Below, piece by piece: positions 3,938 through 56,603 of a stretch of DNA of 64,000 nucleotides. Position 1 is the stretch's first letter. The number at the start of each line of letters is the position of its first letter. The DNA comes from Agroathelia rolfsii (lineage: Eukaryota; Basidiomycota; Agaricomycetes; Amylocorticiales; Amylocorticiaceae): assembly GCA_018343915.1 (NCBI GenBank), contig JABRWF010000008.1, positions 1,612,001 through 1,676,000 of the forward strand. The letters are read 5' to 3'. The translations under genes and the position numbers were made by a program. The notes beneath the pieces are model-generated. The model had not been told where the DNA came from. It worked only from the letters and a program-made list of their open reading frames with translations, and did not search any database.

Positions 3938-4939
3938 TGTTATGAGTTGGACATTTTTCGCATTTTCTTTACGTACCTGTACATATTTTTATTATATTTT
4001 TACGATTTTTATTCATTGAGATACGGACAAAATACCTTGCAGGCAACATCTTAACGCGCGTGTGACTAGCGGTGTTAGCCCCACGTGACAGGAGTGCTCG
4101 TGACAAGAGTATATTAGGAAGGCGGAGTCTAGATCATTCCTTTTCATCAAAAGGTCTAGACTCAGGAACCAGGGTCATTCCAATCACTGTGCGATTACTA
4201 AGGAGTACCAGACTCATCATTCTGATTGGTTGCTCATTGGACTTAGGCACAAAGCACTACCCCTGCATTATTACATGTTCCCGCTTACAAACCCCGTCTG
4301 TGCACAGACCATCAAGGCTGCGCACGGGCCCTTCTATTTATGTATAAATACAAGCATGTAGCCCTTACCTAAACCTTAGCTTTGACCTTCTCGCCTTTAG
4401 GTAAGGGCACCCCCGTTTGTACTTCTTACATATCACTAATATATACTCTCGCCTTCAGGCTTGTTTGCCCTAGCCCACATCACTCTCCCTTCTTCTTATT
4501 AAGTGTAAGGCCTTTAGGGCATCTTAGTAAGCGTCTCCATAAGCCTTGTTACAAGAAGGCGATAAGTCATAAGTCCCCAATACATAAGGGGCACTGCGCG
4601 TGATATCAAACCCAGTTCAGTCTGGTCAAGGCAGTAATAAGTCCTTGCAGGGATTTCGTAGACCATGGTGGGCTAAGCCGCCTGTCTCGAGTAAGAAGTA
4701 TTGTATAAGCTATTTAACGCAAAGCGAGTACACGGGAAGACATCAAGTCTAGAGTACCAAACACGAGCCTAGCAAAGTAGCGTATAAAGTACCCTATTAC
4801 AAAGAGCAGCAACGGGAGCACGTGGGTCCCTAAGAAACATCTGACCAAGTCACACACGTAAAACCCGGCTTTACAGCCCGCCTCTGTACCTTACAGGAGG
4901 TTGTGTTTGTCAGATCAGTCAAGAGCGCAAGCCTTGACA
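3938..4939 (+). repeat. Chimeric 5' LTR of C1 (left end C3-type)
   Basis: TGTTATGAG...CTTGACA, 1002 bp. TATAAATA lies at 4343-4350 and the putative transcript start/self-primer AGCTTTGACCT at 4378-4388. These are enclosed by the inverted repeat GCCCTTACCTAAA (4361-4373) and TTTAGGTAAGGGC (4396-4408). The first roughly 140 bp match the C3 3' LTR type (GCATTTTCTTTACGTACCTG, TTATTCATTGAG) and not the 3' LTR of C1 (CTTTTTCTTACGAACATG, TTGACTGAG). The remainder matches C1 with only scattered transitions, so the crossover lies at about 4080-4240. Confidence 0.85.
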
Positions 4940-4941
4940 TT

Positions 4942-4952
4942 AGGTTGAAGCT
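4942..4952 (+). promoter_or_regulatory. C1 self-primer binding site (decayed)
   Basis: Two bases after the LTR end lies AGGTTGAAGCT, a one-base variant of AGGTCGAAGCT. The consensus complements the LTR segment AGCTTCGACCT that begins about 35 bp after the TATA box. No CCA-tailed tRNA complement (TGG...) is found at the LTR edge. The C-to-T change here breaks one pair. Confidence 0.7.
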
Positions 4953-10200: not shown

Positions 10201-10330
10201 CCAGGGTTTTTGGAGTGGCATTCTCTGGGAAGCTTCTTTAGAGAATACTGATGCAAATTCCAATGCCCATTCTGGTAAAAGGCTGGAAGCGATGGTTAAG
10301 CGACCAGGGTGTGCAACTTTCCCTGCAGAC
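7228..10330 (-). pseudogene. pol: B1 pol: RT, RNase H, integrase, chromodomain
   Basis: Right to left: RT (KGYIRKSESPIAAPMFFVPKK near 10060), RNase H (ETNASNFAMGAVLLQKQ near 9240), H2C2 and integrase core (SDMIVKLPES near 8375, WTSDRGPQFAG near 8200), then a C-terminal chromodomain (KLKYLVEWKGYPGEDLWEKE near 7440). At least nine in-frame stops, for example near 9913, 9010, 8910, 8843, 8635, 8398, 7936, 7887 and 7705, all fit C-to-T or G-to-A. The RT active site reads YIND instead of YIDD (9697-9708), and the integrase motif reads NGQTKQLNQ instead of DGQTERLNQ, which loses the catalytic Glu. The protease lies beyond B2 at 18986-19430. The copy is dead. Confidence 0.92.
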
Positions 10331-11178
10331 TGTCATGAGAAGGGAATTTTTGCCGATTTTTCGGTTATTTTCTTGTATTATTTGGACCAGTATTTAATTA
10401 GCTATCGTATTTTCTTTTCACTTTTTCTATTTTTCTTATAAAAGTTACCCCTTTAGGGCGTGGACTGTGGGCAGTGCAGTGGTCATGTGATTGGCCCTCA
10501 CGTGTTCCAAGCCGCACGACACAGGAGTAATCTCGGGGCTGTGCGAACTTCCATTTCACCATCATGCACAGCCTAGGAACACAAGACCTTTCTTCCCTGA
10601 TCAATTCCTAACAGTTACCGGTACCGGTCCGGAAACGGATCTCCACACGGATGCCCGGTGGAGTTAGGTTAAAAGATCTTCCCCTGCATTGCCTCTTTCA
10701 TACTTCTATCTCCCTCTGCGCACAGACCATCAATGCTGCGCACGGACCATTTAGTAGTAGTATAAATAGTGCATGTAACTTGTCCTGAAGAGCTCAGCTT
10801 CGACCTCTTCGCCTTCAGGCAAGTAACCAAAAGTCTGTATTTCCTCTAAAAGTAGATTGCTAATAAATCTTTGCCTTCAGGGTAAAACTCTTAGGCCTAG
10901 GCCCTGTGTCCTAGCCCCCCCTCTCTCTCTCTCTCTCTCATCCTTAACTTGGAGGTGGTGCAAATCCCCTCATGTGTGTGCGTGAAATAAGAGCTACGAT
11001 TACAAGTGAGATAATAAAGTACCCGGTCACCCTCTCAATAGAATAAGAGTGGTGATATCTGTGGGAACACTCATTTGTAGGTACTTCAGTATTTAGTGTT
11101 GAGAGGTACATTGTTTGATTAGTGCACAAGTAGGCTCTCCATGCCCAACGTCACAAGTCAAGGAGTCTACCCTTAACA
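10331..11178 (+). repeat. B2 5' LTR
   Basis: TGTCATGAG...CCCTTAACA. TATAAATA is at 10761-10768 and the putative start/self-primer AGCTTCGACCT at 10796-10806, exactly 35 bp from the TATA start. Inverted-repeat arms are ACTTGTCCTGAAG (10778-10790) and CTTCAGGCAAGT (10813-10824). The poly(A)-like AATAAA is at 10862-10867. U3 holds ATTGG and CACGTG boxes near 10490-10505. Confidence 0.93.
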
Positions 11179-11180
11179 TT

Positions 11181-11191
11181 AGGTCGAAGCT
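11181..11191 (+). promoter_or_regulatory. B2 self-primer binding site
   Basis: AGGTCGAAGCT two bases after the LTR is the exact reverse complement of AGCTTCGACCT at 10796-10806. Pairing stops at both ends, giving exactly 11 nt. The position and length are those of the self-primer of the fission yeast element Tf1. Function is inferred. Confidence 0.78.
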
Positions 11192-11655
11192 ACCAGGAAA
11201 TCCCTTGGACTCCCGCGGTCTGAGAAGAAGCAAGTGACAATTGCTTACAAAGAGCACCGAATTCTTTTTTTTCTCTTACATACAACTTCTGAGTGCGGAA
11301 ATGATAAACTACTTTGGAAAGCAATTGTGCAGTGCCCTACATAGCCTGTTTACAACTCTGTCTAGACAGAAATAGTGTGTACGTTCCACGCGATTTTCTG
11401 GCTGTATCCGAAGCACAAGACAGGTCTAAACCACCTGGTGTTCTAGGAGTCTCCCTTGGAGATCAAAGTTTATTGTCGTTAAACGCAAGTGGCACCTTTT
11501 CCACCCCTCCCTGCCATTAAAATTTTGCGCAAATTTTTGTGTGATTACGATACGGGCAAGCTCTAGCCCCAGCCGAAGAAGAAAATACTGTCAAATGCAT
11601 CCGGAAACCGGTACGACCACCGGTGATAAAGAAGACCGCTACAAAAGCTCTGTGA
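11192..11655 (+). other. B2 untranslated leader
   Basis: About 460 bp between the primer site and the gag ATG, alignable with the leaders of B1, B3 and Binv. A short upstream reading frame around 11596-11660 overlaps the gag start. I see no other signal. Confidence 0.55.
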
Positions 11656-13113
11656 ATGAGCACACGAAGGGGCACATCCTACAAGCCCAAAGAAGTCCTG
11701 GTCCCCTGGGCCACCAAACCCACTGCGTCACCCCCAGAAGTTACTAAAGAAATCGCGTCGAGCTCGGCTCTGCATATTTTTGAAGAAGAAGAGGAAGAAT
11801 CTGGCGAGGAAGCCATCTCCACACAAGCGTCACCACCCAAGACACCAGAAGGTCAAGAAGAGGCTCCATCAGAATACCCCTCACCATCAGAATTCCGCCG
11901 TTGGTATACCACCAAAGCTTCATACCCCAAGTCACCCATCGTCCCCCATCCATCTCCGTCCAAAAGCCGCCGCGAACGTTGCAAAGAAAAGAAACGCAAA
12001 CCTTCCCCTCCTCCCAAAATGTCCCTTCCCCAGGAACTCGGCCAAATTTTGGCCCTATTACAGGCAAACCAAACTCGTATCCAAGCTTCAATGGAACAGA
12101 TGCAGGAAACACAAGCTCGGTTCGCCGACCTGCTAGAAAGAGAACAGCCAGCTCCTGCCACTGTTGCCTCCTCTTCTATCCCCAAAGAAATCAGGCAACC
12201 CCCTGAAAAGTTCTCAGGAGATTGGACTAAGTATCAGTCCTTCGTGTTCGGCTTTGAGAATCACATCAAGCTAAACCCCAAAATTTACTCCTCGGACTAC
12301 ACGAAGGCACGCTTCTTTGTGGGACTTCTAGAAGGGGCTCCAAAAGCTTGGAGTCAGAAGTTCGATGACGCTATCGACACAAAGGGCTTCAACTTTGAAA
12401 GGGACCTGTATGCAAGGTTCAAGGCTCTCTATGGTGCTAGAGACTTTGGTAGAATTGCGCTTCAAAAGCTCCAGGATCTCAAGCAAGGAACCTTGTCAGT
12501 TGCAGACTTCACGGCTGCCTTCTCAACCCTGGCCAACCAGACTAAGCTGTCGGGAGAAGATCAGAGGGTACGCTATTGGCAGGCCCTATCTCCAAAAATC
12601 AAAGGAGTCATTGGTGGTTATCCGAAGGAACGTAGAGATACTTTGGAACACCTAATAGAAGCTGCCGTCGATGCCGAAGAAGGCCTCAGAGATGCAGGGA
12701 TATGGACGGACGGATGGAAACCAAAACCTCGTTTCCAGAATACTCAGGGAACTGCCACCAACCCCATAACAATCAATGCAGCACAGGCAACCCCTGCCTC
12801 TCCAACCCCAGTCAGCCAAGGAAGCCGGCAACCTCCAAGGGATCTAAGTACGGTACAGTGTTACAACTGTCAATAATGGGGGCACTTCGCTTCCAACTGC
12901 ACAAATCCAAGGGTCTCCAGATACCAAGGATCGAGGCCAAGGGTCCAGGCCACAACCACCATGGCAACCCCTGTTCCCGATCAACTTGGTCCCTCTGCAG
13001 CAAACGACGACATCAACGAAGGATCCTCAACAATGACAATGGCCGACCTACAGGCCTTAGTGGAACAGCAAGTGATGGCACTTGCCGCCTTCAAAGATAA
13101 GGCGGGTTTTTAG
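11656..13113 (+). pseudogene. gag: B2 gag
   Basis: Starts at ATG 11656 (MSTRRGTSYKPKEV). Order: acidic and proline-rich N-terminus (EEEEEESGEE, SPSKSRRER), a coiled region (MSLPQELGQILALLQANQTR near 12020), capsid (EKFSGDWTKYQSFVFGFENH near 12210; LEGAPKAWSQKF near 12340) and a CCHC knuckle CYNCQQWGHFASNC-type near 12860. One stop, TAA at 12874-12876, falls inside the knuckle (CAA to TAA). The last codons GCG GGT TTT TAG contain the frameshift heptamer. The structural protein would be about 485 residues. B1 and B3 have ATA where this copy has its ATG. Confidence 0.9.
13104..13110 (+). promoter_or_regulatory. -1 frameshift heptamer, B2
   Basis: G GGT TTT in gag phase immediately before TAG (13111-13113). 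Pol continues in the -1 frame as GGFLEGLTERAISADPYL. Confidence 0.78.
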
Positions 13114-14093
13114 AAGGGTTGACGGAAAGGGCCATTTCGGCCGACCCTTATTTGTCGAATCGTTTCTTTTCTCTTCTTTCTTGTAATTCTGTTTCCATTT
13201 CCGGTGCGCATGGACAGCACCTTCATATCCCAATCATGTTCCATGGACATTTCCTTTCACTTGTAACTTTAGCTATGATAGATTCTGGTGCATCTTCCTC
13301 TTTTGTCTATTCTCGCTTTATTAAAGAAAATAAAATAAATACAAAAAAACTTCCTCATGTAATACCTATACATAACATAGACAACTTGCTTAACGCTCAA
13401 GGGAAAATCGAAGAAATTGCTATTCTTGAGACAAGCATCGGCGGGATAAGAAAGAAACTCCCATTCTTAGTCACCGATATCGGGCAAGAAAATGTCATCC
13501 TGGGAATTGACTGGCTTTGGTTGGAAAACCTGGTAATAGACTGGTCAGCAGGAAAGATTGTGCACCCCAACTGCATAACCATATCCTCCAGCCTCCTACC
13601 AGAGTGGGCAGCAGAGTTTACTTCCGTATTTTCTAAAGAAGCCTCCCAAAGAATGCCGCTCCGAAAACCTTGGGACCACAAAATCGAACTCAAGGATGGG
13701 GCACAACTCAGGAGAAGCAAGGCATACCCTCTTTTGGTTAAAGAAGAAGAAGCGTTAGTAGATTACCTCAAAGAAAATCTTGAGAAAGGCTACATCAGAA
13801 AATCGAAAAGTCCTATCGCCGCTCCTATGTTCTTTGTCCCTAAAAAGAACGGTTCCCTTCGACCAGTCCAAGACTACCGGAAGCTTAATGCCGAAACAAT
13901 CGAGAATGCTTACCCACTCCCGCTAATTTCGGAACTTCAAGACAAAATGACCAAATTCAGAACTTTCTGCAAAATTGATTTAAGATGGGGGTTCAATAAT
14001 ATCCGAATCAGAGAAGGTGACAAACACAAAGCGGCCTTCATCACAAACAAGGGATTATTTGAGCCCACAGTCATGACATTTGGTCTATGTAAC
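13111..14093 (+). pseudogene. pol: B2 pol, protease and start of RT
   Basis: The -1 frame after gag is open without stops up to the solo LTR. The protease shows AMIDSGASSSFVYS near 13275 and ENVILGIDWLWLEN near 13490. RT begins at KGYIRKSKSPIAAPMFFVPKK near 13790 and reaches TFGLCN at 14093, where the F LTR cuts it between N and A of NAPATMQTMMD. The frame resumes at 14726. Confidence 0.92.
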
Positions 14094-14720
14094 TGTCACG
14101 TTCCGCTCCACAATACTCTCGGGAGTACGTCTCCGCCATCTCCAACGGCACCTCCGCATCGGGGCCTCCGCAACGTACATGACATACTCCTCCCACGCTC
14201 CGCCCTCTCCCTCCGCCATCAGCTCCGGAAGCCGGATCCTGCGAGCCTTTTAGAGTCAATCAAAACCACCGAGTTAGTTGTCTCACACGCGTTCCTATCT
14301 TTTGTGCATTCCCATTGTTTGTTCCCTGTTCCTTATTTCATTTCCCATGAACACTCTTGGCTCTGATGTATACTATATGATTATTTCCCACCCCCTATTC
14401 CTATTATCTTTCTAGCTTTTCTGTGTCTCGCTACTACCACAGTATTTATACCAATACATGATGTACTTAGCACCTCAGTTCAGAAATCAACTAAGTTCCC
14501 CATCCTCTGTCCAACCTCTGTCCCAGACCGCAACTAGGCAAGGGCCTGACACATACGTCTTGGCCAAGTCCGGTTTCCCCTTTCTCTCATCTACCCATCC
14601 GTTGCTTTCTACCCACTCTGTCATCTCCGCACCCTTTCCGTCTCCGCCTCCACTTCCGCTCCGCCTCCACACCCTTTCCGCTCCGCCTCCTCTTTGTACT
14701 CCCTCTGTCCGAACTTAACA
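14094..14720 (+). repeat. Solo LTR, family F, in B2 RT
   Basis: A 627-bp segment with TGTCACGTTC...ACTTAACA ends, flanked by a perfect GTAAC duplication (14089-14093 and 14721-14725). Removing it restores the RT reading frame exactly. It has a TATA-like TATTTATA near 14447 and CT-rich, CTCCGCC-repeating ends. No internal sequence or second copy of this family occurs in the window, and orientation is uncertain. It lacks the AGCTTCGACCT core of B, C and E. Confidence 0.88.
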
Positions 14721-14725
14721 GTAAC

Positions 14726-17278
14726 GCACCTGCCACCATGCAAACGATGATGGACAATTTGTTCTACAAATTCAATCAACTAGGATGGCTAGTACATTAT
14801 ATTGACAACATCATCATCGGAGCAGAAATAGAAGCTGAATTACGTAAAAGGGTCTTAGAAGTACTAGGAGTTCTTAAAGCAAACGATCTGTTTGCAAACC
14901 TGGAAAAGTTTGAGTACGATGTCCCGGAAGTAGATATCTTGGGTGCCCTGGTTTCATATGGCTCCATCCGCATGACCCCGGAAAAGGTCAAAGCAGTCCT
15001 GGAATGGCCCACCCCTCAGAAAGTTTCCGACCTCCGACACTTCCGTGGTCTTGCCAACTACTACCGACGCTTCATTCGGAATTTCGCACAGATCTGTAAG
15101 CCCCTAGACCGTTTAACCGGAAAAGTAGACTGGAAATGGGAATTGGAGGAGCAGGAAGCCTTCGATGCCCTAAAAGCGGCCTTTACTTCGGCACCTGTAC
15201 TTGGGGCATACTCGCAGACAGCAGAAACACAGTTGGAAACAGATGCTTCTAACTTCGCAACAGGGGCAGTTCTTCTCCAAAAATAGTCAGACAACTCCTG
15301 GCGACCAATTGCATTCCTCTCCCAAGCAATGAACGATGCCGAGCGAAATTATGACATTTGGGACAAGGAAATGTTAGGGATCATCAGGGCTCTGGACGCC
15401 TGGCAACACTACCTCATTGGTCTTCCCCACCCCTTTGAAATACGAACTGATCATAAGAACCTGGAATATTGGAAAACAGCTCAAAACCTGACCAGACGAC
15501 AAGCAAGATGGTCCCTTTTCCTTTCTGAGTTCCGGTTCACGATCTCTTATCTCCGAGGATCCGAGAATGGCCGCGCTGACCCCCTATCTCGACGACCAGA
15601 CTTTCAACGATCTGATGAGGAAGACAACTTGGATCAGGTTGTCCTGGACCCCAAACTCTTCCGAATCAATGCCGCTAGAAGGGGCCACGTAGAAGTTCAA
15701 GGAGAAAAGGGAATCTTAGATCAAATCAGAAGCAAGGCAAAGGATGCTGAAATTGCAAATGCCCTAGGAATAGTCAAAGAACTAGGCCCGGTCAAACTGC
15801 AAAAAGGTCTCGAAGAATGGAACAAGGAAAACGGCTTAATTTTACACCTTGGAAAGGTCTATGTACCTCGCGACACCGTTTTACGAAATGACATCATCCG
15901 TCTTTGCCACGATGTACCAGCGGCTGGTCACCCAGGCCGGCACAAGACTCTAGAATTAGTCTCAAGAAACTATTGGTGGCCCGGCCTTACAAAAGCAGTC
16001 AATGATTACGTAGCCTCGTGTCCCAGTTGCCTTGCCTCAAAGACATCTAGATCTATGCCAGTAGGACCCTTAGCCCCTCTACCAACTCCGGAACGACCCT
16101 GGGAACATGTCACCTCAGATATGATCGTTAAACTCCCAGAATCCTAAGGCTTCGACTCTATTTTGGTAGTAGTAGATAGGCTTACCAAGATGTGCCACCT
16201 AATCCCTTGCGTAGAAGCGATCACGGCTTCAGAAATGGCGGACCTATACTTGGCCAACATATTCAGACTCCACGGCTTACCCAAACAATGGACTTCGGAC
16301 TGAGGACCCCAATTTGCTGGAAAAGTCATGAGGGAAATCCACAAGCGTTTAGAAATCAAAATGTCCCTTTCTACCGCCTATCACCCACAGTCTGATGGCC
16401 AAACAGAACGCCTCAACCAGGAAGTCGAGGTATACCTTCGGAATTACGTCTCCCACTGGCAAGACAACTGGGCCGGTCTTCTACCACTAGCAGAATTTGC
16501 GCTTAACAATCAGCAGCAGGCATCAACAGGAACCTCCCCCTTTGAGATGAACTACGGATTCTCCCCATGCATGAACCTAATAACAGCAGGGATCCCAAGT
16601 ACAGAAGGAGCACAATTGTGGACAGAGAAAATCAAAGAACTACAGGAAGATGCTAAGGCGGCCCTAGATCACACAGCAAGCCGAATGAAATACTTCTTTG
16701 ACAAGCACGCCGCGGAAATTCCTAAGTACGCAGTAGGCAACAAAGTTTGGCTGAGCACAGAAAACATCAAGCTGGCCCAACCCTCAAAGAAGCTCTCAGC
16801 CAAGTGGATCGGTCCTTACAAAATCACCGAACTTATTGGAAACCGAGCAGTCCGGCTCGCCATCCCAAAAAGATGGACCATTCACGACGTTTTCCACGTT
16901 TCATTGATCAAGCCACATGTCCAAGTAGAATCTAGGCCACTTGCCCCCATTCCAGAAGTCATCGAGGTGGAAGGAGAAGAGGAACACAAAGTCCTACGCA
17001 TCAAAGATAGCCGACTAAGCCCAAGAACGAAGAAATTAGAATACTTGGTTGAATGGAAGGGATATCCTGGAGAAGATTCATGGGAAAAGGAAGCGAATAT
17101 CACCAATGCCCCTCGTCTGATCAAGGAATTCCACAAGAAAAACCCCAAAGCACCTAAACGCCTATCGGCTGCAGTCTTTGCGAATTTACCATTTCAACCA
17201 ATTGAAAATTTCACAGAAACAACGGAAAAGATCGGAGGAACATGGGAACTAGGGATATTCCGGAGGAAATCCCCTTAG
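14726..17278 (+). pseudogene. pol: B2 pol: RT end, RNase H, integrase, chromodomain
   Basis: Continues RT with the active site YIDN (14798-14809), where Asn replaces the second catalytic Asp. RNase H follows (ETDASNFATGAVLLQK near 15240; YDIWDKEMLGI near 15355), then H2C2 (GHPGRHKTLELVSRNYWW near 15940), the integrase core (SDMIVKLPES near 16120, DGQTERLNQE with intact Glu near 16400) and the chromodomain (KKLEYLVEWKGYPGEDSWEK near 17040). Stops at 15284-15286 (CAG to TAG), 16145-16147 (CAA to TAA) and 16301-16303 (CGA to TGA) interrupt it. The polypurine tract GGAAGGGGGTAA at 17278-17289 primes plus-strand synthesis. Confidence 0.92.
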
Positions 17279-17289
17279 GAAGGGGGTAA

Positions 17290-18980
17290 TGTCATGAGAA
17301 GGGAATTTTTGCCGATTTTTCGGTTATTTTCTTGTATTATTTGGACCAGTATTTAATTAGCTATCGTATTTTCTTTTCACTTTTTCTATTTTTCTTATAA
17401 AAGTTACCCCTTTAGGGCGTGGACTGTGGGCAGTGCAGTGGTCATGTGATTGACCCTCACGTGTTCCAAGCCGCACGACACAGGAGTAATCTCGGGGCTG
17501 TGCGAACTTCCATTTCACCATCACGCACAGCCTAGGAACACAAGACCTTCCTTCCCTAATCAATTCCTAATGGTTACCGGTACCGGTCCGGAAACGGATC
17601 TCCACACGGATGCCCGGTGGAGTTAGGTTAAAAGATCTTCCCCTGCATTGCCTCTTTCATACTTCTATCTCCCTCTGTGCACAGACCATCAATGCTGCGC
17701 ACGGACCATTCAGTAGTAGTATAAATAGTGCATGTAACTTGTCCTAAAGAGCTCAGCTTCGACCTCTTTGCCTTTAGGCAAGTAACCAAAAGTCTGTATT
17801 TCCTCTAAAAGTAGATTGCTAATAAATCTTCGCCTTCAGGGTAAAACTCTTAGGCCTAGGCCCTGTGTCCTAGCCCCCCCCCTCTCTCTCTCTCTCTCAT
17901 CCTTAACTTGGAGGTGGTGCAAATCCCCTCGTGTGTGTGCGTGAAATAAGAGCTACGATTACAAGTGAGATAATAAAGTACCCGGTCACCCTCTCAATAG
18001 AATAAGAGTGGTGATATCTGTGGGAACACTCATTTGTAGGTACTTCATGTCATGAGAAGGATATTTTCGCCGATTTTTCGGTTATTTTCTTGTATTATTT
18101 GGACAAGTATTTAATTAGTTATCGCATTTTCTTTCTATCTTTCATATTTTTCTTATAAAATTACCCTTTAGGGCGTGGACTGTGGGCAGTGCAGTGGTCA
18201 TGTGATTGGCCCTCACGTGTTTCCAAGCCGCATGCCACAGGAGTAATCTCGGGGCTGTGCGCACTTCCATTTCATCATTGCGCACAGCTCAGGAACACAG
18301 CCTTCCTTCCCTGAACAATTCCTAACGATTACCGGTATCGATCCGGAAACGGATCTCCACACGGATGCCCGGTGGAGTTAGGGTAAACGTTCTTCCCCTG
18401 CATTGCCACCATTCATGCTTCTATCTCCCTCTGCGCACAGACCACTAAAGCTGCGCATGGACCCTTGTATAGCAGTATAAATAGTGCATGTAACTTGTCC
18501 TGAAGAGCTCAGCTTCGACCTCTTCGCCTTCAGGCAAGTAACGGTTTGTATTCCATAAATAGATTGCTAATAACACTTCGCCTTCAGGGTTATATTCCTT
18601 AGGCCTAGGCCCCTCATCCTAGCCCCTCTCCTTTCTCTCTCTATTACCTTACTTGGAGGCGGTGCAAATCCCCTCTCGCGTGTGTGTGACATATTCATAA
18701 GAGCATCGATAAGAGAATAAGCAGAGTACCCGGCGCACCCCAATAGATAAGGGACTTGCGTATCTGTGGGAAAACTTAGTTTCTTAGGTACTTAGTCCTT
18801 GTATTAAGAAAGTCTATTGTTTGATAGTGTCACAAGTAGGCCCTCCACGCCCAACGTAACATAGTCAAGGAGTAGACCCTTGACACTTCAGTATTTAGTG
18901 TTGAGAGGTACATTGTTTGATTAGTGCACAAGTAGGCTCTCCACGCCCAACGTCACAAGTCAAGAAGTCTACCCTTGAGA
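17290..18980 (+). repeat. B2 3' LTR, split by a solo LTR
   Basis: 17290-18047 and 18891-18980 together make 848 bp, the same length as the 5' LTR. The break carries a CTTCA duplication. The outer end TTGAGA abuts the CAGAC duplication shared with the left edge of B2. Confidence 0.92.
18048..18885 (+). repeat. Solo LTR, family B variant, in B2 3' LTR
   Basis: 838 bp, TGTCATGAGAAGGATATT to CCCTTGACA, flanked by CTTCA (18043-18047 and 18886-18890). It diverges from B2 (for example GTGTTTCCAAGCC, CATTCATGC) and so belongs to another B lineage. The TATAAATA and AGCTTCGACCT core is near 18475-18520. Youngest on the deepest path of the nest. Confidence 0.93.
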
Positions 18981-18985
18981 CAGAC

Positions 18986-20890: not shown

Positions 20891-21355
20891 GTAAAATGGT
20901 CTTCTTTGTCACCGGTGGTCATGCCAGTTTCCAAACGGGTAGCGGGATTTTCTTCTTCAGCTAGGGCTAGAGCTTGCCTGTATAGTAATCACACAAAAAT
21001 AATCACGCAAGTTTGAAATAGCAGGGGGGGGTGGAAAAGGCGCCACTCACGCTTAGCAACAATAAACTTTGATTCCCAATGGGAACTCCTAGAACACCAG
21101 ACGTATTAGGCCTGTATAGTGCTTTGGATACAGCCAGAAAATCGTGTAGAACGTATATGCTATTTCTGTCTAGACGGAGTTGTAAACAGGCTTTGGAGGG
21201 CTCTGCACAATGGCTTTCCAAAGTAGTTTGTTGCTTACGTGTTCAGAAGAAAGTACTTAAAAAGATTTATGAAGGGGGTGCTCTTCGTAAGCAATTGCTA
21301 ATTGCTTCTTCTCAGACCGTGGAAGTCCGAGGGAGGCCTGGTAGCTTCGACCTAA
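20891..21355 (-). other. B1 leader with self-primer binding site
   Basis: Untranslated leader matching that of B2. The primer site, read on the plus strand as AGCTTCGACCT, is at 21343-21353, two bases from the LTR edge at 21356. It exactly complements the start motif in the B1 3' LTR (6744-6754). The 5' LTR copy of the start motif has one C-to-T change. Confidence 0.75.
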
Positions 21356-23215
21356 TGTCAAGGGTACACTCCTTGACTCTTGAGAATTCGTGGGACAACT
21401 CCCTCAAATATCTTTTAAGTCTAAGACTGTCCTTCTTAACACTAAGTATACGTGAAGTACCTAAATGCAAGTGTTCCCACAGCTATCACACCCTTATATC
21501 TATTAAAGGGGGACCGGGTACTTTCTTAGCTTGCACTTAATCGCTGCTCTTACGTTTCACACGCACATGAGAGGGGATTTGCACCGCCTCCAAGTAAGGG
21601 ATGTAGGAGAAAAGGGAAAGGGAGGTGGGCTAGGATGGAAGGCCTAGGCCTGAGAGATGAGTACCCTGAAGGCGAAGTTTTATTAGCAATCTATGTAAAA
21701 GGGAATACAAACTTGGTTACTTGCCTGAAGGCAAAGAGGTTGAAGCTGAGCTCTTCAGGACAAGTTACATACGCTATATATACTACTATTGAATGGTCCG
21801 TGCACAGCATTAGTGGTCTGTGCGCAGAGGGAGATAGAAGCATAGTTGTGGCAATGCAGGGGAAGATCTTTCAGCCTAACTCCACCGGGCATCCGTGTGG
21901 AGATCCATTTCCGGATCGGTACCGGTAACCGTTAGGAATTGATCAGGGAAGGAAGTCTGTATTCCTAGGCTGTGCATGATGGTGAAATGGAAGTTCGCAC
22001 AGCCCTGAGATTACTTGTCAAGGCTTACGCTCTTGACTAACCAAACAACGTTAACCCTCTCGAAGGTACGAGGGTGGACTGTAAGGTCCCTTTTACAACG
22101 CGTATATGTTCGGTCTTAGGTAGGTGCGTACGTGCTCCCGTTGCTATCCTTTGTAATAGGAGCCTTGAAATTCTACTTTGCTCGGATTGCGGTCGGTACT
22201 CTAGCCTGTGGCTTCCCGTATGCTCTCTTTGCGTCAAATAGTTTTTACAAGACTTTCTTACTCGGAGTAGGCGGCTTAGCCCTCCGTACTTCTACTAACG
22301 CCTAAGGGGACTTGTTACTGCCCCTACCTGAATGAACAGGGTTTGATTTCACACGCAATGCCTCTATATATTGAGGACTTGTAACCTTACTGCCTTCTTG
22401 TATCAAGGCCTTATATATATACTTAATAAGCTGCCCTTGAGGCCTTATGCTTACTAAGAGGATAATGAAAGAGGAGGTGGGCTAGGACAAGTGTAGGCCT
22501 GAAGGCGAAAGGATATATTAGTATGATAAGTACAAGAGGGGGGGGTGCCCTTACCTGAAGGCAAAAAGGTCGAAGCTAAGGTTCAGGTAAGGGCTACATG
22601 CTTGTATTTATACATAAAACAAAGGGCCCGTGCGCAGCCTTGATGGCCTGTGCGCAGCAGGGTTTGTAAGCGGAAATGACAGTAATGCAGGGGCAGTGCT
22701 TTGTGCCTAAGTCCGATGAGCAACCGATCGGAATGATGAGTCTAGTACTCCTTAGTAATCGCACAGTGATTGGAACGACCCTGGTTCCTGAGTCTAGACC
22801 TTTTGATGAAAAAGGAATGATCTAGACTCCGCCTTCCTAATATACTCTTGTCACGAGCACTCCTGTCACGTGGGGCTAACACAGCCAGTCACACGCGCGT
22901 CAAGATGTCGCCTGCAAGGTATTTCGTCCATAACTTGGTCAAATAAAATCGTAAAAATATAATAAAAATATGTACATGTCCGTAGAGAAAATGCGAAAAA
23001 TCTTCAACTCATAACATTACTCCTGTGACATGCGGCTTGGAACACGTGAGGGCCAATCACATGACCACTGCACTGCCCACAGTCCACGCCCTAAAAGGGT
23101 AATTTTTATAAGGAAATCAAGGAAAAAGGAAAGAAAATGTAATAACTAAATAAATACTGGTTCAAATAATACAGGAAATAGACCGAAAAATCGGCAAAAA
23201 TTCCATCTCATGACA
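21356..23215 (-). repeat. B1 5' LTR, split by a solo C LTR
   Basis: 21356-22015 plus 23022-23215 total 854 bp, equal to the 3' LTR. The interruption has a TTACT duplication. The outer end (TTCCATCTCATGACA) abuts TACTT, the duplication generated when B1 entered C1. Confidence 0.92.
22016..23016 (-). repeat. Solo LTR, family C, in B1 5' LTR
   Basis: 1001 bp in minus orientation, from TGTCAAGGCTTACGCTC to the complement of TGTTATGAGTTGAAG, flanked by TTACT (22011-22015 and 23017-23021). The start motif, seen as AGGTCGAAGCT on the plus strand, is near 22570 within the TACCTGAA/TTCAGGTA inverted repeat. It shows family C kept transposing after B1 had landed. Confidence 0.93.
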
Positions 23216-25885: not shown

Positions 25886-26743
25886 TGTTATGAGTTGCAA
25901 TTTTGGACTATAAATTTTTTGTTATTATTTAAACAATGTATTATATTTCGTTTCATTTTCTTTCATTATATTACCCTCAGAGCGTGGTCTGTAGGCAGTG
26001 AGCGGTCCTATGATTGGCCCTCATATGACTAAGCCGCACGCTACAGGAGTAATCATGAGTTGTGCGTTTCCTGTTCACCATTCCGCACAACTCCGGAGTA
26101 CAAACCTCCGATCACTGACCGACTCCTAATGGATACTGGTTCTGCTACACACTTCCGAGCTTCATCTCTGGAGCTCCTCCGGAGCTCCGCTCCTGAGCGC
26201 GGAGCCTCCGCAAGTGTTGTATCTCCGCACGGCTGCCCGTCGGAGTTAGGGAAAAGGTCTTCCCCTGCGTATTCTACTTTCTCTATCTCTTGTCTCCGCG
26301 TCGGAACTAGTGCAGAGCTTTCGTAGTAGTATAAGTAGTTGATGTAACTTGTCCTGAAAGGCCAGCTTTGACCTCTTCGCCTTCAGGCAAGTATTTAGTG
26401 TTTGTATTCCTCTTAGAATTACTCAATCAACTTTGCCTTCAGGGTTTATTTACCTCTGGGCCTAGCCCAGCGTCTTAGCGCAACAACACATTCAATTAGT
26501 AGGGTGAAATTCCCTAGATTACTTAGTTAGACGTGTGACGCATGAATCGGAAGTTCCGGAACCTCCGCTCCCCTCCGACTTAAGTCTCCGGAAGCTTCGT
26601 AAGGCGTAAGCAGAGTACCCTTACCACCCTCAATAGATAAAAGGGTTTGTGTAGTGTGGGAAAACTTGCGACTTAGGTACTTTTATTTAGTGGCAGGAGG
26701 TTACTTTGATTATCTCCGCATAGTCAAGAGTGATCCCTTGACA
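25886..26743 (+). repeat. Solo LTR, family E, in C1 pol
   Basis: 858 bp, TGTTATGAGTTGCAATT to CCCTTGACA, with a perfect AAGGA duplication (25881-25885 and 26744-26748). It is distinct from B and C along most of its length but has the same core: TATAAGTA at 26330-26337, AGCTTTGACCT at 26364-26374, arms ACTTGTCCTGAA and TTCAGGCAAGT, and the terminal GTCAAG...CTTGACA. It also holds palindromic GGAGCTCC/CCGGAG clusters near 26165-26215. No internal region is present. Confidence 0.92.
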
Positions 26744-27535: not shown

Positions 27536-28389
27536 TGTCATGAGAAGGATAATTTCGCCGATTTTTCGACTATTTTCTTGTATTATTTGGACTATTATTT
27601 AACTAGTTATGGTATTTTCTTTCCTTTCTTTTATTTTTCTTACGAAAATTACCCTTTAGGGCGTGGACTGTGGGCAGTGCAGTGGTCATGTGATTGGCCC
27701 TCACGTGTTCCAAGCCGTATGTCACAGGAGTAATCACAAGGCTATGCACACTTCTATTTTCATCATTGCGCATAGCCTAGGAACACAGACTTCCTTCCCT
27801 GATCGATTCCTAACGGTTACTGGTACCAGTCCGGAAACGGATCTCCACACGGATGCCCGGTGGAGTTAGGGTAAAAGATCTTCCCCTGCATTGCCATCAC
27901 ATACACTTCTATCTCCCCTGCGCACAGACCATTGAGGCTGCGCACGGACCCTTCAATAGTAGTATAAGTAGTGCATGTAACTTGTCCTGAAGAGCTCAGC
28001 TTCGACCTCTTCGCCTTCAGGCAAGTAAAGAGTTTGTATCCCCTTAAGTAGATTGCTAATAAAAAAACTTCGCCTTCAGGGTACTATCTCTCAGGCCTAG
28101 GCCCCTTCGTCCTAGCCCACCCCCCCCCTTTTCCTCTCTCTCATATCCCTTACTTGGAGGCGGTGTAAATCCCCTTGCATGTGCATGTGAAACGTAAGAG
28201 CATTGATTAAGTGCAAGCTAAGAAAGTACCCGGTCCCCCTTCAATAGATATAAGGGTGTGATAGCTGTGGGAACACTTGCATTTAGGTACTTCACATACT
28301 TAGTGTTAAGAAGGGCAGTCTTAGACTTAAAAGATATTTGAGGGAGTTGTCCCACAAATTCTCAAGAGTCAAGGAGTGTACCCTTGACA
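27536..28389 (+). repeat. B3 5' LTR
   Basis: TGTCATGAGAAGGATAATT to CCCTTGACA. TATAAGTA at 27963-27970 and AGCTTCGACCT at 27998-28008, 35 bp apart. The hairpin arms and the downstream AATAAA are conserved. Confidence 0.93.
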
Positions 28390-28391
28390 TT

Positions 28392-28402
28392 AGGTCGAAG
28401 CT
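28392..28402 (+). promoter_or_regulatory. B3 self-primer binding site
   Basis: AGGTCGAAGCT, two bases from the LTR edge, is the exact 11-nt complement of 27998-28008. Confidence 0.78.
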
Positions 28403-30336: not shown

Positions 30337-33300
30337 AAGGGTCGATGGAAAGGGCTATTTTGGCCGACCCCTACCTTACAAATCGTTTCTCCTCTTTTCT
30401 TTCTTTAAATTCTGTTTCTATTTCCGGTGCGCATGGACAGCACCTTCACATCCCCATCATGTTCCATGGACAATTTTCATCCCTTGTTACAGTAGCTATG
30501 ATTGATTCAGGAGCCTCTTCCTCATTTATTCATTCTCAATTTATCAAAGAAAATAAAATACATACAAAAAAATTACCTTGAACAATCCCTGTGTATAATA
30601 TAGATAACTCGCTTAATGCCCAAGGGAGCATTGAAGAAATTGCTGTGCTTGAAACAAGTATTGGAGGAATCCGAAAGAAACTCCCATTTCTGGTCACAGA
30701 TATCGGCCCTGAAAATGTGATCCTAGGGATCGATTGGCTTCGACTAGAAAATCCGGTAATAGACTGGTCTGCGGGAAAAGTTACGCACCCAGAACGCCTA
30801 ACCATCTCCTCCAGCCTATTGCCAGAATGGGCTTCGAAATATGCATCAGTCTTTTCCAAAGAAGCTTCCCAAAGGATGCCCCTTAGAAAACCTTGGGACC
30901 ACAAGATCGAGCTCAAAGACGGAGTGCAACTCCGAAGAAGCAAAGTGTACCCCCTTTCGGTCAAAGAAGAAGAAGCCCTGGTCGATTATCTAGAAGAAAA
31001 CCTTAAGAAAGGTTACATCAGAAAATCGGAAAGTCCTATCACCGCCCCAATGTTCTTCGTACCAAAGAAAAATGGCTCCCTCAGACCGGTCCAGGATTAC
31101 CGAAAGCTTAATGCCAAAACCATTGAAAATGCCTATCCACTTCCCCTCATTTCTGAACTTCAAGATAAAATGACCAAGTTCAAGACATTCTGCAAAATTG
31201 ACCTGAGATGGGGGTTCAACAACATTCGCATCAGAGAAGGCGACGAGCACAAGGCCGCTTTCATCACAAATAAGGGACTGTTTGAACCTACCGTAATGAC
31301 GTTTGGATTATGTAACGCGCCAGCCACAATGCAGACAATGATGGATGATTTATTCTATAAGTTCAACCAACTAGGCTGGCTAGTGCATTACATTGACAAT
31401 ATCATTATTGGTGCACAAACAGAAAGTGAACTGCACAAAAGAGTTTTGGAAGTATTAGGCATCCTTAAGGCAAATGATTTGTTTGTGAACCTTGAGAAGT
31501 TTGAGTATGATGTTCCAGAAGTTGACATCTTGGGCGCCCTGGTTTCCTTTGGTTCGATCCGCATGACACTCGAGAAGGTCAAAGCAATCCTAGAATGGCC
31601 AACCCCAAAAAAGGTCTCTGACATCTGACGTTTCCGAGGCCTCGCAAATTACTACCGACGATTCATCAAAAACTTCGCGCAAATGTGTAAACCGCTAGAC
31701 CGCTTAACCGGCAAAACTGAATGGAAGTGGGACTTAGAAGAACAAGAAGCCTTTGACGCCCTGAAAAAGGCTTTTACCTTGGCACCAGTGTTAGGAGCAT
31801 ATTCCCAAAAAGCAGAAACACGCTTGGAAACTGATGCTTCCAACTTTGCAACTGGGGCAGTGCTTCTACAGAAACAGCCTGACAATTCCTGGTGACCAAT
31901 AGCCTTTCTCTCACAAGCAATGAACAATGCTGAGAGAAACTATGACATATGGGACAAAGAAATGCTAGGAATCATTAGGGCCTTGGATGCTTGGAGACAC
32001 TACCTAATCGGACTTCCCCACCCCTTTGAAATCAGAATGGACCATAAAAATCTCGAATATTGGAAAACGGCACAAAACTTAACCCGCCGTCAAGCAAGGT
32101 GGTCTTTATTCTTATCTGAATTCCGGTTTACCATCTCCTACCTCCGAGGTTCTGAAAACGGACGAGCTGATCCTCTCTCTCGCCAACCCAATTTCCAACG
32201 AGCCGATGAAGAAGACAACCTCGATCAAGTGGTTCTCAACCCCAAGCTGTTCCGCATCAATGCTGCTAGAAGAGGGCACGTAGAAGTACAAGGAGAGAAA
32301 AGCATTCTAGACCGTATTCGAAGCAAAGCTAGGGACGCGGAAATTGCCAATGCGCTGGGAGTAGTCAAAGAACTTGGTCCAGTAAAATTGCAGAAAGGGT
32401 TAGAGGAGTGGAACAAGGAAAATGGCTTAATCCTACACCTGGGCAAAGTTTATGTACCCCGAGACACGACCCTTTGTAATGACATTATCCGGCTATACCA
32501 TGATGTTCCGTCAGCTGGTCACCTGGGCCGCCATAAGACTCTGGAACTAGTTTCTAGAAATTATTGGTGGCCTGGACTCACAAAGGCAGTCAATGATTAT
32601 GTTTCCTTGTGTCCCAGCTGCCTCGCCTCTAAAACAGCCCGATCCATGCCCGTGGGACCTCTAGCACCCCTGCCAACCCCTGAAAGACCTTGGGAATACG
32701 TCACTTCTGACATGATCGTAAAGCTCCCAGAATCCCAGGGTTTCGACTCCATCTTGGTAGTGGTAGACAGATTAACTAAGATGTGCCACCTAATCCCGTG
32801 CGTAGAAGCAATTACTGCGTCTGAAATGGCAGACTTATACCTGGCAAACATTTTTTGGCTACACGGCCTCCCCCGGCAATGGACTTCTGACCGAGGACCC
32901 CAATTTGCCGGAAAAGTCATGCGTGAAATTCACAAGAGGCTAGACATCAAAACTTCCTTGTCCACCGCTTATCACCCGCAGTCTGATGGACAAACCAAAC
33001 GACTTAACCAAGAAGTTGAAGTCTACCTGAGGAACTACGTGTCACATCGACAAGACAATTGGGCCGGTCTCCTACCGCTTGCAGAGTTTGCACTGAATAA
33101 CCGACAGCAAGCTTCTACTAGTTCATCACCGTTCGAAATGAACTACGGCTTCTCCCCCAAAATGAACCTTACAACTGCAGGACTACCAAGTACGGAAGGG
33201 GCGCAACTATGGACAGAGAAGGTTAAAGAACTTCAAGAGGATGCCAAAGCAGCACTGGATCACGCGGCAAGTTGTATGAAGTACTTCTTTGACAAACATG

Positions 33301-33869
33301 CGGCAGAAATCCCGAAGTACGCTGTGGGAAACAAAGTTTGGTTAAGTACCGAAAACATCAAACTAGCACAACCCTCGAAGAAGCTCGGGGCAAAATGGAT
33401 CGGTCCATACAAAATCACCGAACTAATAGGAAACCAAGCAGTTCGGCTCACCATACCCAAGAGATGGACCATCCACGACGTTTTCCATGTCTCTCTAATC
33501 AAACCTCATGTTCAGGTAGAATCCAGACCGCTTGCGCCCATCCCGGAAGTCGTTGAAGTAGAAGGAGAAGAAGAGCACAAGGTACTACGCATTAAAGATA
33601 GCCGTCTAAGCCCACAAACAAAGAAGCTTGAATATTTGGTCGAATGGAAAGGATATCCAGGAGAGGACTCGTGGGAAAAAGAAGCCAACATTACCCACGC
33701 CCCTCGTCTGATCAAGGAATTCCATAAGAAAAACCCCAAAGCACCTAAACGCCTATCGGCTGCAGTCTTTGCAGATTTACTATTCAGACCAATAGAAAAC
33801 TTCACGGAAACCTCGGAAAAGATTGGAGGAACATGGGAACTTGGGATGTTCCGGAGGAAATCCCCTTAG
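30334..33869 (+). pseudogene. pol: B3 pol: protease, RT, RNase H, integrase, chromodomain
   Basis: Full domain order on one frame. Protease MIDSGASSSFIHS near 30505; RT KGYIRKSESPITAPMFFVPKK near 31010, active site YIDN (31389-31400) instead of YIDD; RNase H ETDASNFATGAVLLQKQ near 31828. From 31920 there is a 649-codon open stretch with the end of RNase H, H2C2, integrase core and chromodomain (KKLEYLVEWKGYPGEDSWEK near 33625). The catalytic Glu motif reads DGQTKRLNQE (Glu to Lys, near 32995). Stops at 30579-30581, 31626-31628 and 31893-31895, each CGA to TGA. Chromodomains can direct integration to heterochromatin, which fits this nested locus (family knowledge). Confidence 0.93.
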
Positions 33870-40068: not shown

Positions 40069-40481
40069 AAAAGTTTGTAGAGCAAGGGCTCAATACAGAT
40101 TCCTTTGTCTTCTTCAGGACTCAGGCACTAAGCGGAGTGCCTCTGGTAACGTAATAAAAGGAATAAAGGATTTGAATTGGGCAGGCAGTTTTACACCTGA
40201 AGAGGTGTCCCTAGAAGCAGCAGGCTAACCCTGCAGTAGCGCCTTTGGGTAATGACACAAGGTTTCCCTAGAACGTACAGGTACTCCTAAGCCTAAATCT
40301 GAATGGGTTAAAACTAGGTATTAGATCCTAGCTAATGGCTTCCGCAAACAGTTCAAGCCCAAAACAAATTTAACAAATGAAATGTATGTAAAATTCTTTT
40401 CTTTGCTTGTGCTACTTGGCAGAGAATCAATCTGCACACTGGAGCGAGGCTCAACAGTGGTTTAGGCTAGCTTTGACCTAA
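40069..40481 (-). other. C2 leader with self-primer binding site
   Basis: Leader similar to C1 and C3. The primer site reads AGCTTTGACCT on the plus strand at 40469-40479, two bases from the LTR. It is the variant form, perfectly complementary to the variant start motif in both C2 LTRs (27361-27371 and 41038-41048). Confidence 0.75.
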
Positions 40482-41487
40482 TGTCAAGGCTTGCGCTCTT
40501 GACTAATCTGACAAACACAACCTCCTGTAAGGTACGGAGGTGGGCTGTAATGCCGGGTTTTACATGTGTTACTCGGTCAGATATTTCTCAGGGACCCACG
40601 TGCTCCCGTTGCTACTCTTCGTAATAGGGCACTCTACACACTACTTTGCTAGGCTTATGATTGGTACTCTAGACTTGTCATCTTCCTGTGTACTCGCTTT
40701 GCGTCAAATAGTTTGTATGATGCTTCTTACTCAAGACAGGCGGCTTAGCCCACCGTGGTCTTTGTAATCCCTGCAAGGTCTTATTACTGCCTTGACCAGA
40801 ATGAACTGGGTTTGATCATGCACAATGCCTCCTGATTGATTGAGGTCTTTATAACTTATAGCCTCCTTGTATCGAGGCTTACGTGTACGCTTACTAAGAC
40901 ACCCTAAAGGCCTTACTCTTAATAAGGTAAAAGGAGAGGGAAGGGGTGTAGGCTAGGACGAGTGTAAGCCTAAAGGCAAAATATATTAGTTTTATGTACG
41001 GGATACAAGTGGGGGGTGCCCTTACCTGAAGGCGAAAAGGTCAAAGCTAAAGTTCAGGTAAGGGCTACATGCTTGTATTTATACATAAATGAAAGGGCCT
41101 GTACGCAGCCTTGATGGTCTGTGCACAGCCGGGGTTCGTAAGCAAGATCGTGTCAAATGCAGGGGCAGTGCTTTGTGACTAAGTCCGATGAGCAACCGAT
41201 CGGAGTGATGAGTCTAGTACTCCTTAGTAATCGCACAGTGATCAGAACGACCCTGGTTCCTGAGTCTAGACCTTTTGATGAAAAGGAATGGTCTAGACTC
41301 CGCCTTCCTAATATATTCTTGTCACGAGCACTCCTGTTACGTGGGGCTAACACAGCCAGTCATACGCGCATCAAGATATCGCCTGCAAGGTATTTCGTCC
41401 GTATCTCAGTCAATAAAAATCGTAAAAATACAATAAAAATATGTACATGTTCGTAAGAAAAAGACAAAAAATGTCCAACTCATAACA
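40482..41487 (-). repeat. C2 5' LTR
   Basis: 1006 bp in minus orientation. TATA box (complement TATTTATA) at 41076-41083 and start motif (complement AGGTCAAAGCT) at 41038-41048, inside the inverted repeat CTTACCTGAA / TTCAGGTAAG. Confidence 0.93.
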
Positions 41488-42847: not shown

Positions 42848-43841
42848 GTTGGACATTTTTCGCCTTTTTCTTACGAACATGTACATATTTTTATTGTATT
42901 TTTACGATTTTTATTGACTGAGATACGGACGAAATACCTTGCAGGCAACATCTTGACACGCGTATGACTGGCTGTGTTAGCCCCACGTGACAGGAGTGCT
43001 CGTGACAAGAGTATATTAGGAAGGCGGAGTCTAGATCATTCCTTTTCATCAAAAGGTCTAGACTCAGGAACCAGGGTCGTTCCAATCACTGTGCGATTAC
43101 TAAGGAGTACCAGACTCATCATTCCGATTGGTTGCTCATCGGACTTAGGCACAAAGCACTACCCCTGCATTATTACATGTTCCCACTTACAAACCCCGTC
43201 TGCGCACAGACCATCAAGGCTGCGCATGGGCCCTTCTGTTTATGTATAAATACAAGCATGTAGCCCTTACCTGAACCTTAGCTTCGACCTTCTCGCCTTC
43301 AGGTAAGGGCACCCCCATTTGTACTTCTTACATATCACTAATATATACTCTTGCCTTCAGGCTTGTTCGCCCTAGCCCACATCACTCTCCCTTCTTCTTA
43401 TTAAGTGTAAGGCCTTTAGGGCATCTTAGTAAGCATCTCCATAAGCCTTGTTACAAGAAGGCGATAAGTCATAAGTCCCCAATACATAAGGGGCACTGCG
43501 CGTGATATTAAACCCAGTTCAGTCTGGTCAAGGCAGTAATAAGTCCTTGCAGGGATTTTGTAGACCACGGTGGGCTAAGCCACCTGTCTCGAGTAAGAAG
43601 TATTGTATAAGCTATTTGACGCAAAGCAAGTACATGGGAAGACATTGAGTCTAGAGTACCGAACACAAGCCTAGCAAAGTAGCATATAAAGTACCCTATT
43701 ACAAAGAGCAGCAACGGGAGCACGTGGGTCCCTGAGAAACATCTGACCAAGTCACACACGTAAAACCCGGCTTTACAGCCCGCCTCCATACCTTACAGGA
43801 GGTTGTGTTTGTCAGATCAGTCAAGAGTGCAAGCCTTGACA
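42840..43841 (+). repeat. C1 3' LTR
   Basis: 1002 bp, TGTTATGAG to CCTTGACA. It is immediately followed by CCTGAACCTT, part of another family C LTR, with no match to the left flank of C1. Confidence 0.93.
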
Positions 43842-44429
43842 CCTGAACCTTAGCTTCAACCTTTTCGCCTTCAGGTAAGGGCACCCCATTTGTGTTTCCT
43901 TATGTAAACAACTAATATATTTCGCCTTCAGGCTTACGCACGTCCTAGCCCACCTTCACTCTCCCTCTCTCTCCCCCCCTCCTTATTAAGTATAAGGCCT
44001 ATAAGGCATCTTAGTAAGTGTGTAAGGCCTTGTTACAAGGAGGTCTCTAAGTATCAACAAGTCCCTAATATATCAGAGGGCATACGCATGATAAGAAAGT
44101 CCTATTCATTTAGGCCAGGGCAGTAACAAGTCCCTGTGAACATTTGTAGACTACAGTAGGCTAAGCCACCTATTCTGAGTAAGAAGCACAACAATAGTAT
44201 TTGACACGAAGCGAGTAACATGGGAAGACTAAAACGTCTAGAGTACCAATACACAAGCCTAGTAAAGTACTAGAGAAGTGCCCTATTATGAAAGAATAGC
44301 AACGGGAGCACGTGGGTGTTTGTAAAACATCCAACCAAGTAACACATGTAAAACCCGGCCTTACCGCCCGCCCTTGTATCTTACAGAGGGTTGTGTTTGT
44401 TGGATTAGTCAAGTGCGCAAGCCTTGACA
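43842..44429 (+). repeat. C3 5' LTR, right part only
   Basis: 588 bp from CCTGAACCTT through AGCTTCAACCT (43852-43862), the hairpin right arm TTCAGGTAAGGGC and the U5 end GCAAGCCTTGACA. U3 and the TATA box are missing here. CCTGA at 43842-43846 would be the target duplication of C1. Confidence 0.85.
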
Positions 44430-44431
44430 TT

Positions 44432-44442
44432 AGGTCGAAGCT
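44432..44442 (+). promoter_or_regulatory. C3 self-primer binding site
   Basis: AGGTCGAAGCT two bases after the LTR end, the consensus complement of AGCTTCGACCT. The C3 5' LTR itself now reads AGCTTCAACCT, a one-base decay. Confidence 0.75.
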
Positions 44443-52158: not shown

Positions 52159-52171
52159 GGTTATGAGCACG
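52159..52171 (+). promoter_or_regulatory. copia primer binding site (initiator tRNA-Met half type)
   Basis: Directly after the LTR: GGTTATGAGCACG. GGTTATGAGC complements GCUCAUAACC, the anticodon-loop region of initiator tRNA-Met. This resembles the internal tRNA priming used by Drosophila copia and yeast Ty5. Inference from sequence match only. Confidence 0.6.
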
Positions 52172-56596: not shown

Positions 56597-56603
56597 GGGG
56601 GAG

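Follow-up and report, generated by a model that had tools for sequence, protein, structure and literature searches.

A candidate self-primer in chromodomain LTR retrotransposons of Agroathelia rolfsii, with integrated fold-back copies

In the LTR retrotransposon B2 of Agroathelia rolfsii and its relatives, the 5' end of the element's own RNA very probably serves as the primer of reverse transcription, in the manner of Tf1, and this explanation includes a fold-back route to which two integrated palindromic copies can be assigned. The initial annotation of the 64-kb stretch of DNA analyzed here (the window) had proposed priming from the element's own RNA start, and this proposal is supported as the best reading, the RNA start itself being placed by inference. 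It is preferred because the complement between primer and primer-binding site (PBS) is exact in most motif-bearing copies, genome-wide, and common to four LTR types. Moreover, the pair changes in step in family E, its distance from TATA is fixed in families B, C, and E, a U5-IR helix like that of Tf1-type leaders is present, and no tested tRNA fits the site as well. According to this proposal, transcription would start at the A of AGCTTCGACCT, the leader would fold with nucleotides 1 to 11 pairing with the PBS, and RNase H would cut after nucleotide 11. The primer would then be extended through U5 and R, and plus-strand DNA would later copy it into a new PBS.

Organization of element B2

Window positions 10331-18980 are occupied by a single element, B2, flanked on both sides by the 5-bp duplication CAGAC; all its features described below lie on the plus strand. 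The 5' LTR (10331-11178, TGTCATGAG...CTTAACA, about 850 bp) has its borders defined by the repeat with 17290 onward and by CAGAC at 10326-10330 and 18981-18985. The 3' LTR (17290-18980) is interrupted by a solo LTR at 18048-18885 with its own duplication CTTCA, a later insertion.

Within the 5' LTR, a TATA box (TATAAATA, 10761-10768) is followed by the left arm of an inverted repeat across U3/R (ACTTGTCCTGAAG, 10778-10790), the proposed 11-nt self-primer at the R start (AGCTTCGACCT, 10796-10806), and the right arm (CTTCAGGCAAGT, 10813-10824), which pairs with the left one. An AATAAA at 10862-10867 is likely the polyadenylation signal that would end R, judging from its sequence. Further on are the two strands of the U5-IR helix, AGGGTA at 10879-10884 and TACCCT at 11168-11173, the latter being the end of U5; they pair with each other and are supported by covariation between families. 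After the 5' LTR and the dinucleotide TT comes the PBS (AGGTCGAAGCT, 11181-11191).

The coding part begins with a gag ORF (11656-12876, PF03732), followed by an open piece with the protease and the start of the reverse transcriptase (13119-14366, PF08284 and PF00078), another with RNase H and the integrase zinc-binding domain (15329-16147, PF17917 and PF17921), and the end of pol with SH3_Tf2-1 and a chromodomain (16328-17278, PF24626 and PF00385). In a second B element, the open piece at 31920-33869 carries the integrase core (PF00665) before the chromodomain/SH3_Tf2-1, and PF17917 is also present. Because gag, protease, reverse transcriptase, RNase H, integrase, SH3_Tf2-1, and chromodomain pieces are found in the B elements, B2 and its relatives are classified by their predicted domains as chromodomain Ty3/gypsy LTR retrotransposons (chromoviruses).

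The primer/PBS pair in the window

The PBS of B2 had been described as the exact complement of the LTR motif, located two bases after the LTR, with pairing of exactly 11 nt. Both points hold, since 11181-11191 is the exact reverse complement of 10796-10806, and the match ends after 11 nt on both sides. Counted from the first T of the TATA box (10761), the motif lies 35 bp downstream, and the TGG expected of a tRNA-type site is absent at the LTR edge of B2, also as first annotated. Pair and spacing had further been claimed for the other B, the C, and the inverted B copies; the pair and the TATA-motif spacing of 35 are indeed common to them, but not all copies are still perfect.

Among the seven LTR/PBS pairs examined in the window, four are exact, while two have one mismatch and one has two. 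Besides B2 (10796/11181), the exact ones are the second B element (27998-28402, plus strand; motif 27998-28008, PBS 28392-28402), an inverted B-type element with both sides in T/A form (62450-62834, minus strand; motif 62824-62834, PBS 62450-62460), and an inverted C element (40469-41048, minus strand; motif 41038-41048, PBS 40469-40479). One mismatch is found in an inverted B element (21343-21747, minus strand; motif 21737-21747, PBS 21343-21353) and in a C LTR truncated at -10 by the end of a different LTR (43852-44442, plus strand; motif 43852-43862, PBS 44432-44442), and two mismatches in a C element (4378-4952, plus strand; motif 4378-4388, PBS 4942-4952). The E solo LTR carries the motif as AGCTTTGACCT (26364-26374, plus strand), and its TATA-motif spacing is 34, in agreement with the initial annotation. 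The distance between motif and PBS differs between families, being 374-394 in B and 564-580 in C. Allowing at most one mismatch, the 11-mer has 27 matches in the window, compared with a mean of 1.02 in shuffled sequences.

Conservation of the pair across the genome

In the 37.7-Mb genome, the PBS pattern CANNAGGTYRAAGCT has 342 matches, against 9 for the reversed pattern. The sites examined were the first 100 listed of these 342, all on contigs C1 and C2, and 86 of them were kept as PBS-type sites. The matches left out have the spacers 'AA' (12), 'GA' (1), and 'AG' (1); as PBS candidates, the 'AA' matches and the single 'GA' match were rejected because their sequence context looks like antisense LTR motifs of the D family.

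The partner motif AGCTTYRACCT is located 300-620 nt upstream in 68 of the 86 PBS-type sites, the other 18 having no exact motif at the expected distance. These 68 copies belong to four LTR types (B 26, C 24, E 15, and D 3); in two loci classed as E (L067 and L068), the PBS is followed by C-like sequence, and nested pieces may be involved. Primer and PBS match at 11 of 11 positions in 47 copies, with one mismatch in 18 and with two in 3, and if G-U pairs are allowed all 11 positions pair in 62 of the 68. Beyond the 11-mer, position +12 pairs in none of the 68 copies and position -1 in 31. A TATA-type box is located at 35 in 22/26 B and 22/24 C copies and at 34 in 13/15 E copies; by the strict pattern, it is found in none of the three D copies.

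As a control, only 1 of 8040 neighboring 11-mers downstream of the PBS has an exact complement in its own LTR, leaving out the fold-back locus L077; with this locus, which carries an inverted U3, the count is 75 of 8160. Chance as the origin of the primer/PBS match is excluded. The mismatches sit at the motif's CpG, where old copies would be expected to decay, but the motif and PBS patterns allow variation only there (in the PBS pattern, also in the spacer). In family E, both sides are in the T/A form in 14 of 15 copies (AGCTTTGACCT with AGGTCAAAGCT), that is, they have changed in step. When the partners were shuffled, none of 5000 shuffles over all families and 1 of 5000 within families gave duplexes as good as the own primer-PBS duplexes; copies within a family are related, so that shuffle counts in this work are not probabilities.

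Leader RNA helices

Leaders of the Tf1 type have a helix upstream of the PBS, as described in the parts of the source consulted (PMC10085805), and a helix in the same position is formed here by the U5-IR sequences, in which the U5 end just before the PBS pairs with a stretch of R/U5 located some 75-90 nt downstream of the motif. Its letters are AGGGTAT with GTACCCT or ATACCCT in B and AGGCTTG with CAAGCCT in C, and E has its own variants. The own duplex has an energy of -16.4 kcal/mol versus -14.0 kcal/mol for shuffled partners, a difference reached by 0/5000 shuffles over all and by 28/5000 within families. The helix covaries between families and corresponds to the PBS-upstream 'pretzel' helix with the LTR. 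The PBS-downstream helix with R, the third 'pretzel' helix of Tf1, was not supported by a scan in which 324/5000 and 2061/5000 shuffles did as well.

In minimum free energy folds computed from the motif onward, at least 8 of the 11 primer pairs form in 15/26 B, 12/15 E, 23/24 C, and 2/3 D leaders, and the primer helix is absent from the fold in 11/26 B leaders. Also, the U5 end (window 11157-11177 and homologues) can form a local hairpin, GTCAAG...CTTGAC, before the PBS, which would compete with the U5-IR helix.

Comparison with host tRNAs

Since tRNA priming is common among LTR elements, the site could be a tRNA or half-tRNA PBS, with the LTR match as a by-product. The tRNA set comprised 66 predicted tRNAs (54 distinct), an incomplete set, together with three initiator-type Met-tRNA loci found by pattern. 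In this set, 30 of the 66 predictions, some from overlapping loci, read tRNA-Tyr(ata), several being exactly 262 bp apart (for example G000 C1:602055/602317 and C8:2047459/2047721/2047983), which points to a tRNA-like repeat or array.

A copia element of the window (51805-56957, with 354-bp LTRs and flanking CCTTC) served as a positive control: the anticodon arm of a host Met-tRNA forms 10 nt of pairing with the site that follows the 5' LTR, starting at the first base after the LTR, in a manner that resembles half-tRNA priming. This match shows that the comparison is able to find a tRNA, and it is also a point in favor of tRNA priming in this host. For the chromovirus sites, the longest Watson-Crick run with the 11-mer in the 54 distinct tRNAs is 7 for B and 6 for E, which is the level of shuffled 11-mers, and 4 in the three Met-tRNA loci. 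The longest 3'-terminal run is 1 in the same incomplete set of 54, and none of these tRNAs fits as well as the LTR. Nor does the PBS start with TGG and pair with a tRNA 3' end, as in tRNA-primed Ty3/gypsy elements.

The best case for a tRNA is the anticodon arm of tRNA-Ser(CGA), which pairs over 14 nt with the C-type 19-mer when G-U pairs are included, a length reached by 1 of 200 shuffled 19-mers. Nonetheless, with Watson-Crick pairs alone it covers only 7 in C, the pairing falls to 11 nt in B and to no more than 8 nt in E and D, and in B and C it stops short of the LTR edge, which is left unpaired. The 14-nt pairing with the C-type PBS and the bases that follow is probably due to chance. Moreover, tRNA priming would leave the 11-nt match to the own LTR, seen in four LTR types, to be explained in some other way. 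Taken with the LTR edge devoid of TGG, and for the incomplete tRNA set compared, this makes tRNA priming extremely improbable, and self-priming is retained.

An inverted repeat around the primer

The motif sits in the loop between inverted repeats across U3/R (window 10778-10824, 43263-43310, and 26347-26392). The arms are ACTTG(T)CCTGAAG and CTTCAGGCAAGT in B, and GCCCTTACCTGAA and TTCAGGTAAGGGC in C, and the paired cells amount to 308/312 in B, 156/165 in E, and 305/312 in C; the left arm is lost in one of the three D copies (L129). Arms of C paired with those of other families reach -9.8 kcal/mol versus -23.0 kcal/mol with their own, and partner shuffles over all families gave 0/5000. The B and E arms are nearly alike, and variation within families is too small for such a comparison (485/5000 shuffles).

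This repeat opens a different reading, in which the RNA would start upstream, the repeat would form a 5' leader hairpin whose loop holds the primer, and RNase H would cut inside the RNA, leaving extra 5' sequence ahead of the primer region. Conservation of the repeat, with stems that differ between families and yet pair, speaks for it, as does the folding of three LTRs with the left arm, which is better than that of shuffled sequences (z of -2.8 to -4.3, compared with -0.1 for B2 from the motif onward). The alignment folds with 25 upstream bases are divided, the one of B preferring the hairpin over the primer-PBS helix and those of C and E preferring the primer-PBS helix. Against an upstream start, the left arm of B2 begins only 17 bp after the start of the TATA box, too close for ordinary Pol II initiation. 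Also, the match between PBS and LTR ends at the first base of the motif, or one base past it, in B2 and the copies examined, as expected of an 11-nt primer. An upstream start therefore seems unlikely.

R-U5 duplications, with the LTR end CTTGACA joined to U3/R pieces, were considered as markers of the RNA start and rejected, since they join at CA without TT, like the insertion of an LTR into another LTR. Such junctions were recognized by eye in 7 of 16 matches (one of them, C1:5237156, doubtful) and in 3 more from a second search, with breakpoints from -10 to about -43, and the junction at window 43841 is of this kind. LTRs inserted into other LTRs are seen in the window (18048-18885 and 43841) and among the genome matches, and several of these insertions separate the TATA box from the R start.

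With transcription starting at the motif, as self-priming would have it, the left arm would belong to U3, and the hairpin could form only in DNA or, in the RNA, within the 3' LTR. Among the possibilities, it may keep the R start accessible to the PBS or to minus-strand transfer. A loose parallel is found in Ty3, where part of the PBS is located in U3, according to the portion of the source consulted (PMC5371799). No report of a U3/R hairpin was found in the open-licence literature, in searches none of which was aimed at the hairpin alone. The inverted repeat is a testable part of the LTR.

Integrated fold-back copies

Two integrated palindromes with the order U3-R-U5-TT-PBS-inverted U3 were found, in families C and E, each with a perfect 5-bp target duplication. 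The first sign was locus L077, where the PBS is followed by an inverted U3; the larger locus L167 contains the whole structure. In this family C copy (L167 1980-4309, corresponding to G000 C1:1074374-1076703, minus strand), ATAAG is followed by U3-R-U5, TT, the PBS, the inverted U3 to its end, and ATAAG again. The palindrome sits inside a B LTR, its inverted arms are 97-98% alike, and it is interrupted by a B-type solo LTR with its own duplication AATAT. The family E copy (L168 1217-2553, corresponding to C7:4106616-4107952, 1337 bp) has CTTCC on both flanks and inverted arms 96% alike; of the two dinucleotides at its ends, one has mutated from TG to TA.

The junction search covered the families with a TT spacer, leaving out D with its TC spacer. 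C, B, and E were searched with up to three mismatches, and no third case was found below three mismatches among the matches listed; the candidates with three look like ordinary antisense LTRs and were rejected. For B, no fold-back copy with two or fewer mismatches is present among the 100 listed of 223 matches, a list apparently sorted by mismatches. There are thus two fold-back cases against 342 PBS matches.

From their sequence, the palindromes resemble plus-strand strong-stop DNA in which the copy of the primer had annealed to an LTR at its R start. Since the copied PBS would be able to pair with the R start within the plus strand, this DNA could anneal to its own LTR or to that of a partner. 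It would then be extended to the end of U3, and integrase would insert the resulting palindrome through its two U3 ends. Alternatively, the copies could derive from a deletion between two elements in opposite orientation that share the 11-mer, reverse transcription playing no part; the junction is indeed an 11-bp sequence shared by both. However, if two insertions had been joined by such a deletion, the flanks should be unrelated, and each copy has perfect 5-bp duplications at both U3 ends. In addition, the B LTR that is the target in L167 continues across the insertion with just 5 bases repeated. We therefore regard the deletion as quite improbable.

Self-priming probably has a built-in failure mode, in which strong-stop DNA, ending in a primer copy able to pair with the R start of any LTR in the plus strand, snaps back or pairs with a co-packaged partner and a palindrome with two U3 ends is integrated. 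That this failure mode operates and, in addition, that the conserved U3/R inverted repeat is a dedicated structure steering that choice is a tentative proposal, which we consider rather doubtful. No report of fold-back or two-U3 products was found in the open-licence literature.

Relation to known elements

In Tf1 of Schizosaccharomyces pombe, an 11-nt self-primer at the RNA start pairs with a PBS near the LTR, as stated in the portions consulted of two sources (PMC7175516, PMC10085805). The elements described here are like Tf1/Tf2, so far as these portions describe them, in the 11-nt complement near the LTR, the chromodomain, and the leader helix next to the PBS. They differ, in a comparison with Tf1 by description only, in the U3/R inverted repeat that surrounds the primer and apparently in the PBS-downstream helix, which was not found beyond the level of shuffles. 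The part consulted of PMC7175516 presents self-priming as common in the Tf1/sushi group, including a proposal for the basidiomycete element Tcn1; the likeness to Tcn1, a gypsy element of Cryptococcus neoformans, is likewise by description only (PMC7175516). In the excerpts available to us, Tj1 of S. japonicus has a PBS complementary to its RNA start, and the leaders of Tj1 and of Tosmo1-3 of S. osmophilus, all from fission yeast hosts, are able to form the 'pretzel'; these excerpts mention no fold-back copies. Finally, marY1 and other GyDB clades (Maggy, Pyret, and the V-clade with sushi-ichi) are tabulated as Tf1/sushi-related chromoviruses in the part consulted of PMC6317226, and their likeness to the elements described here is one of classification.

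Of the features that define the Tf1/sushi group, the elements have the chromodomain after the integrase (PF00385, PF24626), the RNase H in the reverse transcriptase (PF17917), and a PBS complementary to the R start, whose role as RNA start is inferred. For the open piece of the second B element, 8 of the 120 relatives listed are from named organisms, with 41-44% identity. Seven are basidiomycetes (Ganoderma, Trametes, Rhizoctonia, Lyophyllum twice, Amanita, and Ceratobasidium), three of them labelled Tf2-like, and one is Absidia. Among solved structures, Ty3 ranks first, followed by other reverse transcriptases (best 60 of 204). A search of NCBIfam gave only weak transposase matches, far below the cut-off, and in viral contigs one stretch matched a pattern and no relative was confirmed.

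Self-priming itself is already known, from Tf1, the Tf1/sushi group, and the proposed case of Tcn1, and the elements described here are a new, well-supported case. Through them, the self-primed group gains several LTR types from a single host, represented by hundreds of PBS-pattern copies, and from one family to another both the primer/PBS pair and the U5-IR helix are seen to change in step. If the proposed failure mode is true, a palindrome with U3 at both ends is a product that tRNA-primed elements cannot make by such a route. The fold-back copies would then be DNA fossils of one step, in which the self-primer is copied into plus-strand DNA, and they can be sought in any genome with Tf1/sushi elements, as well as in the existing Tf1 insertion libraries.
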